A DNA stretch of 25,575 nt from a virus: positions 1 to 25,575 of IMG/VR virus record IMGVR_UViG_3300037069_001131. One strand, given 5' to 3'. The stretch's first letter is position 1. Each line of letters opens with the position of its first letter. This document shows, one piece after another, positions 313 to 6,289 of this stretch. A program made the translations under genes and the position numbers. The notes beneath the pieces are model-generated. The model saw only the letters and a program-made list of their open reading frames with translations, was not told the origin of the DNA and did no database searches.

Positions 313-1218
313 TTAGAGGGCTTCCCGGCTGTAGGCCGGGAACTGAGCCAGGTCACACTCGGGACCTGACTTGTCGGTTCGGACGCGGAGCATCCGTGGC
401 TGGTAGAGGCTCGATCCGGTCCAGTAGAGGTAGGCCACCTCGATCACGTCACCGATCTGGGTTTCGGGCTTGCCGATGGCGGAACAGCCGCCCACCTGCA
501 TGTAGGTCTGCCCCTCCACCGTGACCATGCCAATGCCTGCGGGAGGGGTGGTTCCCTTCTCCACCGGAATCCCGAGGGCGAAGCTGCCGTGCTTGGGGTC
601 AGGTCGATTCACTCCGATCACGACCACATCTGCGGTCTTGACCAGCTTCACCTTGAGGCCGGACTTGGTGCGCGCTCCCGGCTCGTAGGGAGCGTCGATG
701 TGCTTGACCATCACGCCCTCTGCTCCGAGGTGGTTGACCGCCTCCCACAGCGCCCGCTTCTCGTGGGGAGTCTCGACCGAGCGCACCACCTTCACCCGCT
801 CGTTGAGGGGGTCCTGGGCGAGCGCCTGGCCCACGGAGTGCAGGTGAGCGCGGCGCCGGGAGTAGGCGTCGGTCGGCTGCACCAGCTCGAGGCCGCCGCT
901 GCGCCAGTAGGGCAGGTCGAACAGGTACAGCTCGCCGGTCCCGGTCAGGATCTCTCCGTCGAGCACCAGCTCGCCGGGGTCGGCCACAGCCATCAGCTTC
1001 CCGAGCGGGACCGAGAGGGCGGCGAAGTGCTGCATCGCGGCTGTGTGGCTCAGGGCCCGACCGTTCTGCCCGAGGAACTGCACCTTGCCCTCGCGGATCA
1101 CCACCAGCGTGCGCGTGCCGTCCATCTTCTGCTCTAGGACGTGGTGCGGGCTGGCTATCAGCGAGTCGATGTTGGCGAGCTCGGTCTCGCTGTACTTCAT
1201 GGCTAGGCGGACGGTCAT
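313..1218 (-). CDS. ATP-dependent DNA ligase
   Basis: This 301-residue protein joins nicks in DNA through enzyme-adenylate and DNA-adenylate intermediates. Motif I is KMDGTR at residues 31-36, with K31 the adenylated lysine. Motif III/IIIa is seen as ELVLDGEIL (83-91) and YLFDLPYW, motif IV as EGVMVKH (167-173), and motif V as GLKVKLVKTADVVV (187-200). An OB-fold-like C-terminal part follows. The length suits a minimal phage ligase with no accessory DNA-binding domain. I chose the ATG at 1218 because it overlaps the stop of the SWIM gene as ATGA. A longer frame upstream would overlap that gene. M7 is an alternative start. Likely roles are nick sealing in replication, recombination or genome circularisation. 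Confidence 0.93.
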   Translation of the reverse strand: MTVRLAMKYSETELANIDSLIASPHHVLEQKMDGTRTLVVIREGKVQFLGQNGRALSHTAAMQHFAALSVPLGKLMAVADPGELVLDGEILTGTGELYLFDLPYWRSGGLELVQPTDAYSRRRAHLHSVGQALAQDPLNERVKVVRSVETPHEKRALWEAVNHLGAEGVMVKHIDAPYEPGARTKSGLKVKLVKTADVVVIGVNRPDPKHGSFALGIPVEKGTTPPAGIGMVTVEGQTYMQVGGCSAIGKPETQIGDVIEVAYLYWTGSSLYQPRMLRVRTDKSGPECDLAQFPAYSREAL

Positions 1219-1517
1219 GCGTGGGCTCCAATCAGAGCGGCGTGGTCGGGCTGGGTGGTCTTGAGGACGGCGAGGGCGTGGCTGCAGTAAGCGATCAGCC
1301 CGGTGTGGTGCTCGGACAGGGGGCAGGTGCACACGAGGAACCCGACGTTGCCGGTGGCTTCGTAGTCCTTGTCGTACCGGACTCGGTAGGTGCCGTGGTC
1401 GCCTTCGACCTGCCAGAGGTCACGCTGGCCGGGGACGCGGCTCACTGCGCCGGACCGGATCAGGCGCTCGGCCTTGGCGGTGGTGGCGACGCTGAACGTC
1501 AGGGTTTCGGGATCCAT
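1215..1517 (-). CDS. Small SWIM-type zinc-finger protein
   Basis: This 100-residue protein ends in a C-x-C-x(12)-C-x-H pattern (C63, C65, C78, H80), the signature of a SWIM zinc finger. SWIM domains bind DNA or protein in transposases, MEK kinases and archaeal/bacterial proteins. The preceding 40 residues are a short beta-rich segment (DLWQVEGD, TYRVRYD). It is the same size and layout as a second SWIM protein at 17672-17974, so the phage carries two diverged copies. The ATG is preceded by a GGAGAGAGAGAG ribosome binding site. The stop overlaps the DNA ligase start (ATGA), so the two are probably co-translated. The exact function is unknown. Confidence 0.85.
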   Translation of the reverse strand: MDPETLTFSVATTAKAERLIRSGAVSRVPGQRDLWQVEGDHGTYRVRYDKDYEATGNVGFLVCTCPLSEHHTGLIAYCSHALAVLKTTQPDHAALIGAHA

Positions 1518-1630: not shown

Positions 1631-2122
1631 TTAGGACCTGCGGGAGGTCGCCTTCGCCGGTCGTCCCGGGCGGTTGATCCGCGAGCCGGCAGGCTTGGTG
1701 ACCGGCTTGGAGGCGGTGACCTTCTGGGTCACAGCGGCCTTGTCGGCTGCCTCCTCCTTCGGGGTCTGGCCCTTGAGTCGCAGCGCCTCGATCTGCTCGG
1801 AGGCGAGCTTGTTCTTGGGCAGCTGGATCAAGCACCGGGTGCAGAACCAGGCGGTGCGGTCCTTGCCCTCCTCCTCGAGGCGGACCTGGCGGGTGAAGGT
1901 CGCCTTGGTCTTGGCGATCGGCTCCGCGGTCGGCAGGTCGCCGGTCGTGCGGCTCAGGCAGCGGCTGCCCTCGCGGTGGGTGATCGGCTGCTTGCCCTCG
2001 AAGGTGACGGTGAACTCGATCCCGTCGCGGAACACGTAGTCGGACAGGGTCTCGGACCACCGCGTCTTGCCGTGTAGGACGACGGTCGGGGTGGCGACGA
2101 GGGCGGAAGCGTTGTCGGTCAT
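1631..2122 (-). CDS. Protein of unknown function with basic C-terminal tail (163 aa)
   Basis: I do not recognise the family. The first about 105 residues look globular. They include the WFCTRCLI segment, whose C-x2-C could be half of a zinc site. C55 in GSRCLSRT may contribute. From about residue 115 the sequence becomes a Lys/Ala/Pro/Arg-rich, low-complexity tail (for example KPVTKPAGSRINRPGRPAKA), probably disordered and able to bind nucleic acid. It is the first gene after promoter P1 and its CRP-like operator, so it could be among the genes most responsive to that site. The ribosome binding site is GTAGAGAGAAG. A nucleic-acid-associated early protein is possible but unproven. Confidence 0.8.
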   Translation of the reverse strand: MTDNASALVATPTVVLHGKTRWSETLSDYVFRDGIEFTVTFEGKQPITHREGSRCLSRTTGDLPTAEPIAKTKATFTRQVRLEEEGKDRTAWFCTRCLIQLPKNKLASEQIEALRLKGQTPKEEAADKAAVTQKVTASKPVTKPAGSRINRPGRPAKATSRRS

Positions 2123-2174
2123 GTCGTTCTTCTCTCTACTTCGTTAGAATCGCCACCTCGTTTAGGTGGGCGCG

Positions 2175-2190
2175 TAAGACCAGTGTAGCA
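2175..2190 (-). promoter_or_regulatory. Promoter P1, extended -10 (TGCTACACT)
   Basis: On the minus strand, TGC followed by TACACT (-10 at 2182-2187) forms an extended -10 element. The predicted start is near 2175, leaving a leader of about 53 nt before the ATG at 2122. No good -35 hexamer lies 17 bp upstream, as expected for an extended -10 or activator-dependent promoter. The CRP/GlxR-like palindrome is centred about 62 bp upstream of the predicted start. Confidence 0.55.
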
Positions 2191-2227
2191 CAAATGGGGC
2201 AAAAGGGACGCGGGAAGGCGTCCTGGC

Positions 2228-2247
2228 AGTGTGATCTACGTCACACT
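2228..2247. promoter_or_regulatory. CRP/GlxR-type operator, copy 1
   Basis: The sequence contains TGTGATCTACGTCACA, a perfect TGTGA-N2-TA-N2-TCACA palindrome, extended by one AG/CT base pair step on each side. This is the consensus recognised by CRP-family regulators, including GlxR of corynebacteria and CRP of mycobacteria (established knowledge). The centre (2237.5) lies about 62 bp upstream of the predicted P1 start, near the usual class I activation position of -61.5. An identical copy lies at 4500-4520. Binding by a host regulator is inferred. Confidence 0.7.
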
Positions 2248-2276
2248 TTCCGGGCACATACGCGCCGTCGCCCCGG

Positions 2277-2654
2277 TCACCCACCGACGCTTCGGACCAT
2301 GTTGTCGATCACGTCGTCGAACCAGCGGTCGTGCCAGGCGAGCTTGAACATGGCCAGGGCCCCGGTCTTGAGCGCGGTCAGCGGGAACATCAGGAACAGC
2401 AGGTCGCCGGGGTACAGGTCCTCCGGTGAGACGTGCGCGAAGCCGCGTGCACGCGAGCGGGCGTAGGCGTTGACGGCCTCGCCGGTCGTGCTCACCCAGC
2501 GCACCGGTCGGCCGATGCTCTCCTTGGCGAGGTTCTCGTTGTAGCCGTAGACCCACTCCTGCAGGTCACCGCCACAGCCGGTGATCGTGTACCAGCTGCC
2601 CTCGTAGGGCTTGTCCAGGTCCGTGCTGGTGAAGGTGTCGATGGTCAGGGTCAT
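2277..2654 (-). CDS. Protein of unknown function (125 aa)
   Basis: I do not recognise a named domain. The protein is aromatic-rich, with an N-terminal region (YEGSWYTITGCGGDLQEWVYG) that looks like a compact alpha/beta fold. Its C-terminal half contains the hydrophobic segment YPGDLLFLMFPLTALKTGAL followed by AMFKLAWHDRWFDDVIDNMV. The central hydrophobic stretch is too interrupted to call a membrane helix with confidence. The ATG has a strong GGAGGA site. It lies 1 bp after the stop of the preceding gene, so it belongs to the same unit as the two Cys-rich genes upstream. The P1 promoter and the CRP-like site begin just after its stop. Confidence 0.78.
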   Translation of the reverse strand: MTLTIDTFTSTDLDKPYEGSWYTITGCGGDLQEWVYGYNENLAKESIGRPVRWVSTTGEAVNAYARSRARGFAHVSPEDLYPGDLLFLMFPLTALKTGALAMFKLAWHDRWFDDVIDNMVRSVGG

Positions 2655-2655
2655 G

Positions 2656-2931
2656 TCAGTTTCCTCCGTCGAAGTCGCCCGCGCGGTTGCGCGCGTGCAG
2701 GTCGTTCTCGAGCTGACCGATCGCGGTCTGCTTGTCAGTGGGCGTGCACCTCAGGTGACGCCGGCGCCGGGCCCAGAACTGGGTCTTGGGCCAGCCGAGC
2801 TCGTAGAGCGTGTAGTCCTCCCCGGTGCGAATGTCGACGTTGCACGTCGGGCTGTCGCAGAGCCGGTCGGCCTGGGCGGTCTGGATCATGCGCCGGAGCA
2901 CCGGCTCACCGAACGGCAGACGCGCGGTCAT
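2656..2931 (-). CDS. Small Cys-containing protein, possible zinc binder (91 aa)
   Basis: No family is recognised. C25, C30 and C62 lie near basic patches: CDSPTC and later RRRRHLRC. This pattern could hold a zinc ion together with the histidine before C62. The C-terminus is rich in polar and charged residues. The ATG at 2931 shares one base with the stop of the upstream gene (TGATG), which fixes the start and implies coupled translation. Longer upstream readings in this frame would run through the neighbouring gene and are not credible. Its neighbours on both sides are also short and of unknown role. Confidence 0.72.
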   Translation of the reverse strand: MTARLPFGEPVLRRMIQTAQADRLCDSPTCNVDIRTGEDYTLYELGWPKTQFWARRRRHLRCTPTDKQTAIGQLENDLHARNRAGDFDGGN

Positions 2932-3200
2932 CACACGGTCCCGGTGCAGAAGCACCCACCAGCCGCGGTGAGGCACATGAAGCACGTCGGGCAGACACCC
3001 GCGTCTGGCTTCAACCCGTCCCAGAACTCCTTGTCGGAGCACTCCTTGGTCCAGTCGGTCGGGGTGTAGTGGGTGCGGACGGTGAAGGTGCCCTGCTCCA
3101 GCAGCTCCCTGCGGACGGGAACGCTGCTGCCTACGAGGCTCCAAAATCCCGCTGGAACCCTCAGGTCCGATGTGGGGATCTGGTCCTGTGCCTTGCTCAT
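2931..3200 (-). CDS. Small Cys-rich protein, probable zinc ribbon (89 aa)
   Basis: The C-terminal 20 residues contain five cysteines in the pattern C-x2-C-x2-C-x6-C-x-C (from C70), typical of a metal-binding knuckle. The N-terminal part has no recognisable domain. I chose the ATG at 3200 because it has an AGGAGAGAG ribosome binding site. An in-frame ATG at 3260 would lie upstream of the predicted P2 transcription start. It is the first gene of the P2 unit and is followed by the 91-residue and 125-residue genes with almost no gaps. Function unknown. Confidence 0.75.
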   Translation of the reverse strand: MSKAQDQIPTSDLRVPAGFWSLVGSSVPVRRELLEQGTFTVRTHYTPTDWTKECSDKEFWDGLKPDAGVCPTCFMCLTAAGGCFCTGTV

Positions 3201-3239
3201 GATCGGCCTCTCTCCTGGCTTGTCTTTGAGGTGCTTGCG

Positions 3240-3255
3240 TGAGACCAGTGTACCA
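3240..3255 (-). promoter_or_regulatory. Promoter P2, extended -10 (TGGTACACT)
   Basis: The minus strand reads TGG then TACACT (-10 at 3247-3252), followed by TGGTCT as at P1. The predicted start is near 3240, 40 nt before the ATG at 3200. Upstream lie CACCACAGG and ACAGTCCTC, which recur upstream of P4. There is no CRP-like palindrome. A terminator hairpin (3305-3330) insulates it from the gene before. Confidence 0.55.
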
Positions 3256-3304
3256 CACATCTAGGAGGACTGTGCTCCTGTGGTGTAGTGCCCTGGAATG
3301 AGGA

Positions 3305-3330
3305 AGGGCGCCATCCGAAGACAGCGCCCT
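3305..3330 (-). terminator. Terminator hairpin after the 101-aa gene
   Basis: A 7-bp perfect stem AGGGCGC/GCGCCCT (3305-3311 and 3324-3330) with a 12-nt loop follows the stop at 3346. In the minus-strand RNA it is followed by a pyrimidine-rich tail TTCCTCATTCC. It sits between the end of one unit and promoter P2, the expected place for a terminator. Confidence 0.6.
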
Positions 3331-3345
3331 CCCTCGCCGGTCGGG

Positions 3346-3651
3346 TCAGTACGCCCCGGCCCGAATGTCCTCGATGACCTCGGTGAGGTTCGCGATCCGC
3401 CCTGGGGAGGGGACCTTGCGGCTCTCGGCCTTCTCCAGCTCCTTGACCCAGGACTGCTCGAGGTGGGCCATCCGGGTCTTGCAGCCCCGGCAGGTCAGCG
3501 GCCGGTCGACGCTCGACGCTCCCGCGTGTGCGGGGCCACTACCCTCGTCGCAGCTGATCCAGACCCGGGGCGCCAGGCCACCGGCCGGAAGGGCCGCGTG
3601 CACAGGTGCGTCGGGGCTGTCGTTGAAAACGACGTGCTCGTACTTGGCCAT
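3346..3651 (-). CDS. Protein of unknown function (101 aa)
   Basis: The protein starts MAKYEHVVFND and has no domain I can name. C34 and a CRGC pair in the middle could bind zinc. The C-terminal 35 residues (from about SWVKELEKAES) look helical, ending in IANLTEVIEDIRAGAY. The start is fixed by an exceptional ribosome binding site: a (GA)8 dinucleotide run 4 nt before the ATG. The gene stands alone between two hairpins, 3690-3721 upstream and 3305-3330 downstream, so its expression may depend on read-through from the P3 unit. Confidence 0.78.
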   Translation of the reverse strand: MAKYEHVVFNDSPDAPVHAALPAGGLAPRVWISCDEGSGPAHAGASSVDRPLTCRGCKTRMAHLEQSWVKELEKAESRKVPSPGRIANLTEVIEDIRAGAY

Positions 3652-3655
3652 TGGT

Positions 3656-3671
3656 TCTCTCTCTCTCTCTC
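3656..3671 (-). promoter_or_regulatory. (GA)8 repeat serving as ribosome binding site
   Basis: The minus strand carries eight GA repeats ending 4 nt before the ATG at 3651. GA-rich tracts serve as ribosome binding sites at many starts in this window, but this is the longest pure repeat. A dinucleotide run of this length could slip during replication and alter spacing or strength, which is inference. Confidence 0.6.
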
Positions 3672-3721
3672 GCGGGCTGAGGTGCCCGCCGACCGCCCGG
3701 CCCGTGAAGGTCGGGCGGTCG
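3672..3721 (-). terminator. Tandem hairpins between the 162-aa and 101-aa genes
   Basis: A perfect 10-bp stem (3690-3699 with 3712-3721, loop 12 nt) is followed directly, in transcript order, by a 6-bp stem GCGGGC/GCCCGC (3672-3677 with 3684-3689). The pair fills the gap between the stop at 3730 and the (GA)8 ribosome binding site. No U-run follows, so it may terminate transcription partially or protect RNA ends. The second stem lies so close to the ribosome binding site that it could also affect translation. Confidence 0.6.
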
Positions 3722-3729
3722 ACGCGCGC

Positions 3730-4218
3730 TCAGACGCTGACTGGCGGGTGCTGCTGCGACCAGCGGTTCAGCCACTCACTCTGGATCTCGGAGTCAGGGC
3801 CGTCCTTGAGCAGCCGGGCGTAGAGGTCGAACCAGTCGACCCCGACCTGCATCCCGTCCGCGAACTGGATCGTCCGCGTCTGGAAAGGGCGGGTCCGCCC
3901 GCCACCGCGGTACGCAGTGCCGATCGTCGAGTGGACGATCGGACCATGCACAGCGGTTGCCCGGGCGATGACCTCGGAGTGACGCTCGTCCAGAGGTGCG
4001 GTCTCCCGGTTCTCACGCTCAGCCCCAGGTGCTGCTGCGAACGGATGAACGACCGCTTCGATCGCGGCCACGTCCACCTCCAGGTCCACAGCGAACCGGG
4101 CAGCCTGCGTGAGGCTCTCGAACTGGGAGGCCTGCTCCACGGTGTCAACCATCCGGGCTCCCGTCGCCTCAACGAAGCTCAGGTAGGTGCCGGCGTGGGT
4201 CTTGACGATGTAGCTCAT
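3730..4218 (-). CDS. Protein of unknown function (162 aa)
   Basis: The first about 65 residues (MSYIVKTHAGTYL, then FESLTQAARFAVDLEVD) resemble a small alpha/beta domain. The middle (HGPIVHSTIGTAYRGGGRTRP) is glycine- and arginine-rich. The C-terminal part, from MQVGVDWFDLYARLL, is helical and aromatic. No named family is recognised. The ATG at 4218 has a GAGAGAGAGACACC ribosome binding site. An in-frame ATG further upstream (4284) lacks one and falls within the leader hairpins. It is the only gene between promoter P3 and the tandem hairpins and has a leader of about 225 nt, unusually long for this genome. Confidence 0.78.
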   Translation of the reverse strand: MSYIVKTHAGTYLSFVEATGARMVDTVEQASQFESLTQAARFAVDLEVDVAAIEAVVHPFAAAPGAERENRETAPLDERHSEVIARATAVHGPIVHSTIGTAYRGGGRTRPFQTRTIQFADGMQVGVDWFDLYARLLKDGPDSEIQSEWLNRWSQQHPPVSV

Positions 4219-4445
4219 GGTGTCTCTCTCTCGGTTTGCCGGCTCGTCTCTCAGCGAGTCGGTCACTGCCAGGCACGGACGCAATGGCCGTGCCTGACGG
4301 TGATGGTGAGCGAGAGGGTCGGTGTCACACGGGCAGGTGCGAGCGCGTCAGGCGCAGAAACGGGGCCTCGGACAACCGACGAAAGTACGCGAGCGACAAC
4401 ACACATCGACACGTACCGAAGTACTTGCTCCTCTGTTCAGTTCGT
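4219..4445 (-). promoter_or_regulatory. Long structured 5' leader of the 162-aa gene
   Basis: About 227 nt separate the predicted P3 start (near 4445) from the ATG at 4218, with no gene I can support. The leader contains a perfect 9-bp stem, CAGGCACGG/CCGTGCCTG (4270-4278 with 4288-4296), which extends imperfectly outward. A second imperfect stem of about 8 bp lies near 4240-4258, just upstream of the ribosome binding site. This could be a cis-acting RNA element or an attenuator. I recognise no known riboswitch class. Confidence 0.4.
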
Positions 4446-4460
4446 AGTACGAGTGTACCA
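4445..4460 (-). promoter_or_regulatory. Promoter P3, extended -10 (TGGTACACT)
   Basis: The minus strand reads CTGCG-TGG-TACACT (-10 at 4452-4457), the same extended -10 as P2, and it shares CTGCGTGGTAC with P4. The predicted start is near 4445. A CRP/GlxR-like operator is centred about 63 bp upstream of that start, almost the same spacing as at P1. There is no convincing -35. Confidence 0.58.
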
Positions 4461-4499
4461 CGCAGGCAGAGGAACTGAGGTGCTGTGGGCCTCTTACAG

Positions 4500-4520
4500 G
4501 TGTGATCTACGTCACACTTT
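4500..4520. promoter_or_regulatory. CRP/GlxR-type operator, copy 2
   Basis: TGTGATCTACGTCACA (4501-4516) is identical to copy 1, and identity extends to 21 bp including the flanking bases. The centre (4508.5) is about 56 bp from the -10 of P3, against 55 bp at P1. The constant spacing on the same DNA face supports a real activator or repressor site. It lies between the terminase stop (4562) and P3. Confidence 0.7.
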
Positions 4521-4561: not shown

Positions 4562-6289
4562 TTACCGCCGAGGGATCATCGGTCCCCGCGACAGCCCGCG
4601 GCCCCGGTTCATGTCCGAGGCGGCTGCCCGAGCCAGGTCACGCGGCTGCTGCCACTGAGGTCGGTTCATGTTCATGCGCCCAGGCACGGTGATGCCGCCC
4701 TTGCCACCGTCACGCAGCCCGAGCAGGCCCTGGGTCAGCGCGTCCACCTGGTCGTCGGCGGTGTCGTTCGGGAAGTTCCGCAGCTCGGAGAGCAGGTCGG
4801 TGACCCACTCGTTGCCAGGGTCCGAGGGGTGCGGCAGGTAGACGTTGCCGCTCTCGATCTCAGGGGTGACGATGCGCGCGCGGGCCACCTTGCCAATGGA
4901 AGCCGTGATCGGCGTCAGGCCCGAGATGTCGTCCTTGAGGGTGTCGATGACCGCGGCACCGTTGGCCGCCTCCTCGATGATGCGCTTGTGCACGAGGTGA
5001 CCGCAGCGCGAGCGCGCCGGGTCGTTGGTGATCGCCCACTGCTTCATCGCCGCGATGGTCTGGGTGAAGGACCAGCGGCCGCGCTGCTGGGCGATGAGGT
5101 AGCGGTTGGCGGCCGAGCGCACCCAGCGTTGGCCGACAACCCAGCCGCCCGTGTCCGGGTGCGTCGACTTGAACGCGCAGTCCCAGCTGTCCAGCCACGT
5201 CCCGCCCACCAGGGCCGAGGGATCGAGGTAGACCACCCGCCCGTCCTCGGTGGCCTTGGACTCGTCCATCGTCCAGAACCGCCACCAGCCCGAGTCGAAG
5301 ATCGCGCCCTTGGCCGGCGCTGGGCGCTGCTGGTACATGGCCGAGAACGTGTAGGTGCCGACCGAGCGGCGCACGTCCTCCCACCGGGACAGGGCCTGGC
5401 CGACCGACTCGTGCACGATGGGCGACAGCAGCGGTGCACCCTCCGGCCGGTCGAGCACGTCGTCGGACTCCGCGAGGGCGGGCAGGCTGATCTTCTCCCA
5501 CTGGCGCGGGTCACCCTCATGCTCGGGGCTGAGCAGACGGCCCACGAAGTCGTCCTCGTGCCAGCGCGTCATGACGACGATGACCAGGTAGGGAGGCTCG
5601 AGACGGGTCAGGGCGACCGAGAGCCACCAGTCCCACAGGTTCTGGCGCATCGTGATCGAGTGCGCCTCCACGAAGTCCTTGATCGGGTCGTCGATGATCA
5701 GGACCCGCGCGCCTCGACCGGTCAGCGAGCCTCGCGTGGAGGTGGCGAACATGCCGCCCTTCTCCTGCGTGGCCCACTTCGCCCCGGCGCCGCCATCGGG
5801 TGCCAGGGCGATGCCCAGGTCCGGGTGCTCCTCGATCGCCACTCGGATCGTCTTGGCCCAGGTGCTGCTCAGGTCGCCGTCGTGGGAGGACAGCACGAAC
5901 TTCCACTCAGGGTGACGGCGCAGGATCCACAGCGGGGTGTAGATCGAGGTGAGTAGGGTCTTGCCGGCACGCGGCGGCATGGAGATGACGATGTGCCGGT
6001 TCTGCCCGCGCTCCACGTCCCGCACGGCCTTGGCGATGCGCGTGCCCAGGTGCTTGATGTGCGGGCGCACCACGAACCCCGGGTCGAGCTCCTTGGCCTG
6101 CAGGTCGGGGCGGGAGGGTATGCCGATGCCGTGCGCGATGCGGTAGGCCCGGGTGATCGAGGCGATGCGGCTGGTCAGCGCACGCACCTCGTCCTCGGTG
6201 GAGGCGTCGGCAGCCGCCGCCCGCAGGGAGTTGATGAGGTCCTGCACCGCCTCCGGGGTGGACGGGATCTCCTCCTCAGTGGTCGGCAT
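4562..6289 (-). CDS. terL: Terminase large subunit (TerL)
   Basis: This 575-residue protein is the motor that pumps phage DNA into the prohead and cuts it to length. Residues 104-111 (MPPRAGKT) are Walker A and VLIIDD (196-201) is Walker B. MTRWHEDDF (240-248) is the coupling segment typical of this family. The C-terminal RNase H-like nuclease shows its acidic residues at D370 (SWDCAF), E439/E440 and D513/D516 (DDQVDALTQG). The length is complete for the family. The start ATG lies inside the end of the small-subunit gene (14-bp overlap). A much longer in-frame reading upstream is only a shadow of terS. The C-terminus ends in an Arg/Met-rich tail. It is the last gene of a ten-gene unit. Confidence 0.96.
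   Translation of the reverse strand: MPTTEEEIPSTPEAVQDLINSLRAAAADASTEDEVRALTSRIASITRAYRIAHGIGIPSRPDLQAKELDPGFVVRPHIKHLGTRIAKAVRDVERGQNRHIVISMPPRAGKTLLTSIYTPLWILRRHPEWKFVLSSHDGDLSSTWAKTIRVAIEEHPDLGIALAPDGGAGAKWATQEKGGMFATSTRGSLTGRGARVLIIDDPIKDFVEAHSITMRQNLWDWWLSVALTRLEPPYLVIVVMTRWHEDDFVGRLLSPEHEGDPRQWEKISLPALAESDDVLDRPEGAPLLSPIVHESVGQALSRWEDVRRSVGTYTFSAMYQQRPAPAKGAIFDSGWWRFWTMDESKATEDGRVVYLDPSALVGGTWLDSWDCAFKSTHPDTGGWVVGQRWVRSAANRYLIAQQRGRWSFTQTIAAMKQWAITNDPARSRCGHLVHKRIIEEAANGAAVIDTLKDDISGLTPITASIGKVARARIVTPEIESGNVYLPHPSDPGNEWVTDLLSELRNFPNDTADDQVDALTQGLLGLRDGGKGGITVPGRMNMNRPQWQQPRDLARAAASDMNRGRGLSRGPMIPRR

Follow-up and report, generated by a model that had tools for sequence, protein, structure and literature searches.

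Class I CRP promoters, exemplified by the lac promoter of E. coli, have a weak -35 element or none, and their palindromic operator TGTGA-N6-TCACA has its centre close to -61.5 or lies one helical turn further upstream. Host cyclic AMP (cAMP)-CRP acts as a repressor at the pir, dam and recE promoters of coliphage T1 (PMC6737242), promoters of cyanophage S-PM2d bind the host regulator PhoB (PMC10976474), and GlxR of C. glutamicum has the consensus TGTGANNTANNTCACA (PMC4254451). By term search, a survey covering the WhiB and Lsr2 regulators of actinobacteriophages contains no mention of CRP or GlxR (PMC8612146), and a literature search, judged from titles and the openings of abstracts, yielded no recognised report of class I CRP operators in actinophages. 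Here we describe two promoters, P1 and P3, in the IMG/VR virus record IMGVR_UViG_3300037069_001131, a stretch of 25,575 bp (hereafter the window) that is probably a fragment of a viral genome. Each is preceded by a palindrome of the CRP/GlxR type, and it is likely that both are class I promoters of an actinobacteriophage that are activated by the CRP/GlxR protein of the host. Because of the T1 and cyanophage precedents, the use of a host nutrient regulator by a phage is already known, and since the actinobacteriophage survey is without CRP and GlxR, class I geometry in actinophages would be a new variation. The predicted elements are as follows.

2229-2246, no strand assigned: predicted CRP/GlxR-type operator of P1, GTGTGA-TCTACG-TCACAC, with the 21-bp identity extending to 2249; centre 2237.5, corresponding to -62.5
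4500-4517, no strand assigned: predicted CRP/GlxR-type operator of P3, with the 21-bp identity extending to 4520; centre 4508.5, corresponding to -63.5
2174-2191, minus strand: P1 core promoter GTGCTACACTGGTCTTAC, -10 hexamer TACACT at 2187-2182, extended (TGC); predicted +1 A at 2175
3239-3256, minus strand: P2 core promoter GTGGTACACTGGTCTCAC, -10 hexamer at 3252-3247, without a CRP operator
4444-4461, minus strand: P3 core promoter GTGGTACACTCGTACTAC, -10 hexamer TACACT at 4457-4452; predicted +1 A at 4445

A first-pass annotation of this DNA had claimed two identical operators, and a search of the window bears this out, with GTGTGATCTACGTCACACTTT present as a 21-bp identity at 2229-2249 and 4500-4520. 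The same annotation had spoken of a 16-bp palindrome. A 16-mer is indeed repeated (TGTGATCTACGTCACA, at 2230-2245 and 4501-4516), but the symmetric part of the operator really spans 18 bp, with 6-bp arms (GTGTGA-N6-TCACAC) around six central bases that are asymmetric. It had also proposed that TGTGA-N6-TCACA sites in the genome be compared with chance. The 25.6-kb fragment contains only two exact sites, located at the two 21-bp copies, versus an expectation of 0.019 under a first-order Markov model. When three or fewer mismatches to the 16-mer are allowed, there are still only two matches in the window (0.14 expected), and none of 100 shuffles gave two. Both operators fit the GlxR consensus TGTGANNTANNTCACA, and that of P3 sits between the stop codon of the terminase gene and the next gene. 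We also looked for a wider set of weaker CRP sites in the window and rejected it, as seven matches at two mismatches were found versus 8.67 expected.

All three promoters lie on the minus strand and have in common an 18-bp core (GTGNTACACTNGTNNYAC), which has no further match in the window. Downstream of each operator on the minus strand lies an extended -10 element (TGNTACACT), at a gap of 42 bp for P1 and 43 bp for P3. The distance from the operator centre to the last base of the -10 hexamer is 55.5 bp and 56.5 bp, respectively, in line with the 55-57 bp given by the first-pass annotation. The -10 elements and starts are predictions, with +1 assigned to the invariant A located 7 nucleotides downstream of the -10 hexamer. 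With these starts, the operator centres fall at the class I CRP position, and the earlier estimate of about -62 to -63 agrees with this result. No -35 hexamer is present at P1 and P3, and none is apparent by eye at P2. The P2 promoter also has no CRP palindrome, and its best match carries four mismatches.

Compared with the lac-type promoters of E. coli, the predicted window promoters likewise have palindromic TGTGA-N6-TCACA operators (perfect in two of two), a recognisable -10 element, and no -35 element. They differ in that they occur in high-G+C actinobacteriophage DNA, carry an extended -10, and have predicted operator centres at -62.5 and -63.5, or about -74.5 in the related contig L019. 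As in phage T1 (PMC6737242), phage promoters are addressed by host cAMP-CRP, which is here a prediction. Unlike the repression described for that coliphage, the geometry is of the activation type, several promoters per phage are involved, and the hosts are actinobacterial. The cyanophage system (PMC10976474) likewise places operators of a host nutrient regulator upstream of the phage's own genes, although in that case the regulator (PhoB) and the signal (phosphate) are different, and its control has been demonstrated by electrophoretic mobility shift assays and transcriptomics, beyond sequence comparison.

In the proposed mechanism, a host CRP/GlxR dimer with cAMP would bind GTGTGA-N6-TCACAC centred at -62.5 or -63.5, and would recruit RNA polymerase to these promoters with an extended -10 and no -35; the contact is presumably made with the polymerase's alpha C-terminal domain. 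The cAMP/carbon state of the host would then govern expression of a 163-residue protein, a SWIM protein and a DNA ligase from the P1 unit and of two small proteins from the P3 unit, and P2 would be independent of it. We infer the binding, its cAMP dependence, activation rather than repression, and the identity of the host. Because consensus sites stand at activation distance at two promoters and are kept in distant relatives, some phage genes are probably tuned to the nutritional state of the host. If this is true, infection by these soil phages would sense the carbon/energy state of the host via the host's global regulator, which would activate several phage promoters simultaneously.

Relatives of the window were collected by searches with its terminase (first 10, then 29), giving a sample of 30 records with the window included. 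The query gene is as follows.

4562-6289, minus strand: terminase large subunit (Terminase_6C/6N), with the start at 6289 inferred

Six of the 30 records carry a total of 10 exact palindromes: two in the window, four in G013 (L099/L088), and one each in L013/L098, L019, L100 and L101. Nine of these palindromes, on five contigs, lie upstream of the same kind of core promoter. The gaps are 42, 43, 42, 43, 43, 43, 43 and 43 bp, and 54 bp in L019, whose step of 11-12 bp corresponds to one helical turn. Finding eight of nine gaps in a 2-bp class has a p of about 2e-12 under uniform gaps over 75 positions, which is only a guide because this class was picked after the window was seen. A -10 is present in all nine operator promoters and the TG of its extension in seven (in G013, TA replaces it at two of four promoters), and none of the nine has a TTGACA-like hexamer 16-18 bp upstream. 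The spacers are dissimilar, with a mean pairwise identity of 0.36 versus 0.28 for shuffled sequences, and 0.56 for the closest pair. The palindrome of L013/L098 occupies the same place as the P3 operator, at a gap of 42 bp, and in L013 it is conserved amid diverged flanks. In G013, a 31-kb relative, all four operator promoters have a gap of 43 bp. The consensus TGTGANNTANNTCACA is matched by the single operator of L013 and by all four of G013, as it is by the two of the window.

The open reading frames with family matches in the region of the two operators are all on the minus strand. The genes of the two units are as follows, with those of P1 in the order 163-residue gene, SWIM zinc-finger gene and ATP-dependent DNA ligase gene.

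1631-2122, minus strand: first gene of P1, 163 amino acids, no Pfam or PHROG match
1215-1517, minus strand: SWIM zinc-finger protein, 100 amino acids, downstream of P1
313-1218, minus strand: ATP-dependent DNA ligase, 301 amino acids, overlapping the SWIM gene
3730-4218, minus strand: first gene of P3, 162 amino acids, no Pfam or PHROG match, with a leader of about 227 nucleotides
3346-3651, minus strand: second gene of P3, 101 amino acids, no Pfam or PHROG match

The fourth operator promoter of G013 (in L088) is followed first by a SWIM gene (39% identical to that of the window) and directly thereafter by a ligase gene (43% identical). About 220 bp downstream of the operator promoter of L100 lies the gene for a weak homologue of the 163-residue P1 protein (29% identity, E 3e-7); a scan of IMG/VR for relatives of this gene had returned none, and the L100 homologue came up later. 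The recurrence of the SWIM-ligase order and of a P1-gene homologue behind operator promoters argues that the operator is kept with its operon while the coding sequences diverge widely. The P3 leader folds no better than its shuffles (z -0.91), and Rfam and tRNA searches of the window gave no matches. The nearest named phages are the Microbacterium phages Leaf, Dewdrop, Rasputia and Hendrix, with 74-76% identity over parts of the terminase and ParB-like genes, and because of this the host of the window is probably an actinobacterium.

The exact 18-mer occurs in 14 IMG/VR stretches, including the Gordonia phages SteveFrench, Hotorobo and Woes (Montyvirus, Woesvirus). A Blast search gave 82 related phage records, of which 10 were fetched. 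In every one of the 10, a perfect palindrome stands 44 bp before TAGGGT, a -10 that was chosen after the palindromes had been seen, and the spacer shows substitutions at constant length. The palindrome precedes a protein of 314-325 residues belonging to PHROG 6708, whose function is unassigned. The Gordonia phages SteveFrench, Woes, Hotorobo and Chelms carry this arrangement, and their records list Gordonia hosts in culture, so that the proposal is open to direct test. Three further stretches (L032, L033 and L055) have the palindrome 42 bp before TACTAT.

When IMG/VR was scanned more broadly for GTGTGA-N6-TCACAC with an extended -10 downstream, at least 120 stretches were returned, with 80 loci listed. 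Among the matches listed there were 89 rows, and 52 were left once near-copies had been removed. Gaps of 33-35, 43-45 or 53-55 bp were present in 37 of these 52, compared with about 15 expected (9 of 31 possible gaps), with the bins having been named after the histogram was seen. Periodicity scored highest at a period of 11, and of 5000 random sets only 4 attained this score. Most of the contigs in this set are A+T-richer than the window, and no named-phage relatives were found for the two contigs that were tested. Helical phasing is expected of a class I activator, and it is no proof that the activator would be CRP in all of these contigs. Alternative palindromes used as a control gave zero sites in the phasing loci, which says little because the loci were preselected for the CRP palindrome. 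When TANNNT was tested at each distance in 57 non-redundant flanks, there were 11 matches at gaps of 40-45 bp versus a mean of 0.83 per gap, which is a hint only. With rather more hesitation than conviction, we propose that phages of Actinobacteria and of other hosts have repeatedly adopted a promoter design in which a consensus host CRP operator stands in helical register before an extended -10. Several lineages would each on their own have placed replication, repair and unknown genes under host cAMP, and in some of them four promoters per genome would form a CRP regulon on the phage genome.

As a guess at the host, we chose the Cellulosimicrobium order, several genomes of which contain the exact 18-mer. 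A cyclic nucleotide-binding protein is encoded in 58 of 59 genomes of this order, and LAQLVGASRETVNK is present in its CRPs at all six loci examined, with SRETVNK as the recognition helix. The consensus TGTGANNTANNTCACA occurs 26 times in 119 genomes of the order versus four times for the reversed pattern, although one of these genomes, with two of the 26 sites, had been picked for having a site. The stretches with the exact 18-mer (n=22) include five named actinobacterial genera, belonging to the same groups as this order and to others. The fit of both window sites to TGTGANNTANNTCACA and the SRETVNK helix of the CRPs of this candidate order are shared with the GlxR/CRP regulons of Actinobacteria (PMC4254451), whereas the targets here are phage genes. 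By comparison, the nine promoters on five contigs, the Gordonia phages and the phasing strongly support the class I geometry and the link to host CRP/GlxR that the first-pass annotation had suggested.

Several observations weigh against activation by host CRP/GlxR. The central TA of the GlxR consensus is absent in L019 and L100, which keep the arms and in this respect depart from the GlxR/CRP regulons. An exact palindrome is absent from 24 of the 30 records, some of which end at or just after the terminase, and none is present in the 95 kb of the isolated relative Microbacterium phage Leaf. The palindrome of L101 has no recognisable -10 nearby. Among the phasing matches listed, a smaller peak at a gap of 58 bp is out of phase with 34/44/54. 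Lastly, the identical 18-mer is found with TATA-box-like sequences in L004 and L006, where another factor may read it.

In an alternative reading, a regulator encoded by the phage, whether CRP-like or unrelated, would read the palindrome at P1 and P3 during infection, with its likeness to a CRP site arising by convergence or capture. The gene for such a regulator could lie outside the 25.6 kb of the window, the density of sites in phages (four in 31 kb of G013) is far above that in host genomes (26 in 119 genomes), and archaeal-looking contigs contain the 18-mer too. However, no cyclic nucleotide-binding (PF00027) or Crp helix-turn-helix (PF13545) domain was found in any of 10 phage records, including the 74-76 kb Gordonia phages and the 95 kb of Leaf. 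Moreover, the palindrome and its distance recur in groups of phages that are not closely related to the window, for which a shared host factor is the simpler explanation. We consider this reading unlikely, and the suggestion of the first-pass annotation that the phage may encode its own CRP-like factor finds no support in the 10 records, with the genome of the window being incomplete. It is quite improbable that host CRP/GlxR binds and acts as a repressor, or merely modulates read-through from the upstream operon. CRP repression of T1 promoters is documented (PMC6737242) and P3 immediately follows the terminase gene and points the same way, but the operator lies clear of the core promoter, keeps a constant distance in the class I activation register with an 11-bp step in L019, and belongs to promoters that lack a -35, a feature that activator dependence would lead one to expect. 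Functionless palindromes arising by chance, for which the absence of an excess at two mismatches in the window might speak, can be dismissed as extremely improbable because the palindrome-to--10 geometry is conserved in nine family promoters, in addition to the two exact sites versus 0.019 expected and the conservation in L013.

Activation by host CRP/GlxR remains the preferred reading for P1 and P3, and some additional sites and promoters were observed elsewhere. In L101, three CRP-type near-palindromes are arranged in tandem about 34 bp apart (4070-4160) behind the terminase relative. The isolate phage contigs L091 and L092 (74-75 kb) have a second palindrome near the contig end (3820 and 3813, respectively) besides the site near 1607/1633, and that of L091 is 45 bp before GTGGTACGGT. 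In Vibrio phage VAP7 (L054), GTGTGATCTAGGTCACAC at 2813-2830 lies close to the ribonucleotide reductase beta gene and is a possible CRP site. The palindrome GTGTGA-N6-TCACAC is found near TATA-box-like sequences in L030, L034, L037, L042-L044, L050, L051, L058, L062, L004, L006 and L036. These contigs, with G+C of about 0.43-0.59, look archaeal, and a different factor may bind the palindrome there. One locus from the promoter-plus-palindrome scan (L097), with a gap of 35 bp in A+T-richer DNA (G+C 0.43), was taken as chance.

The L106/L089 relative has three core promoters (5940, 6351 and 7602) and no CRP site. Two of the three have GGTGAATAGGGCAACTC in common upstream, which suggests a different activator or operator. 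Finally, an alignment of 19 core promoters of the terminase family contains a partly symmetric 18-bp core element (GTGNTACAMTNGTNNYAC), in which invariant bases flank the -10, including a G two nucleotides downstream and AC at the predicted start. This element may be the operator of a phage regulator, or an alternative sigma factor may favour it; SigB promoters of C. glutamicum are reported to have a G at -5 (PMC7999487).

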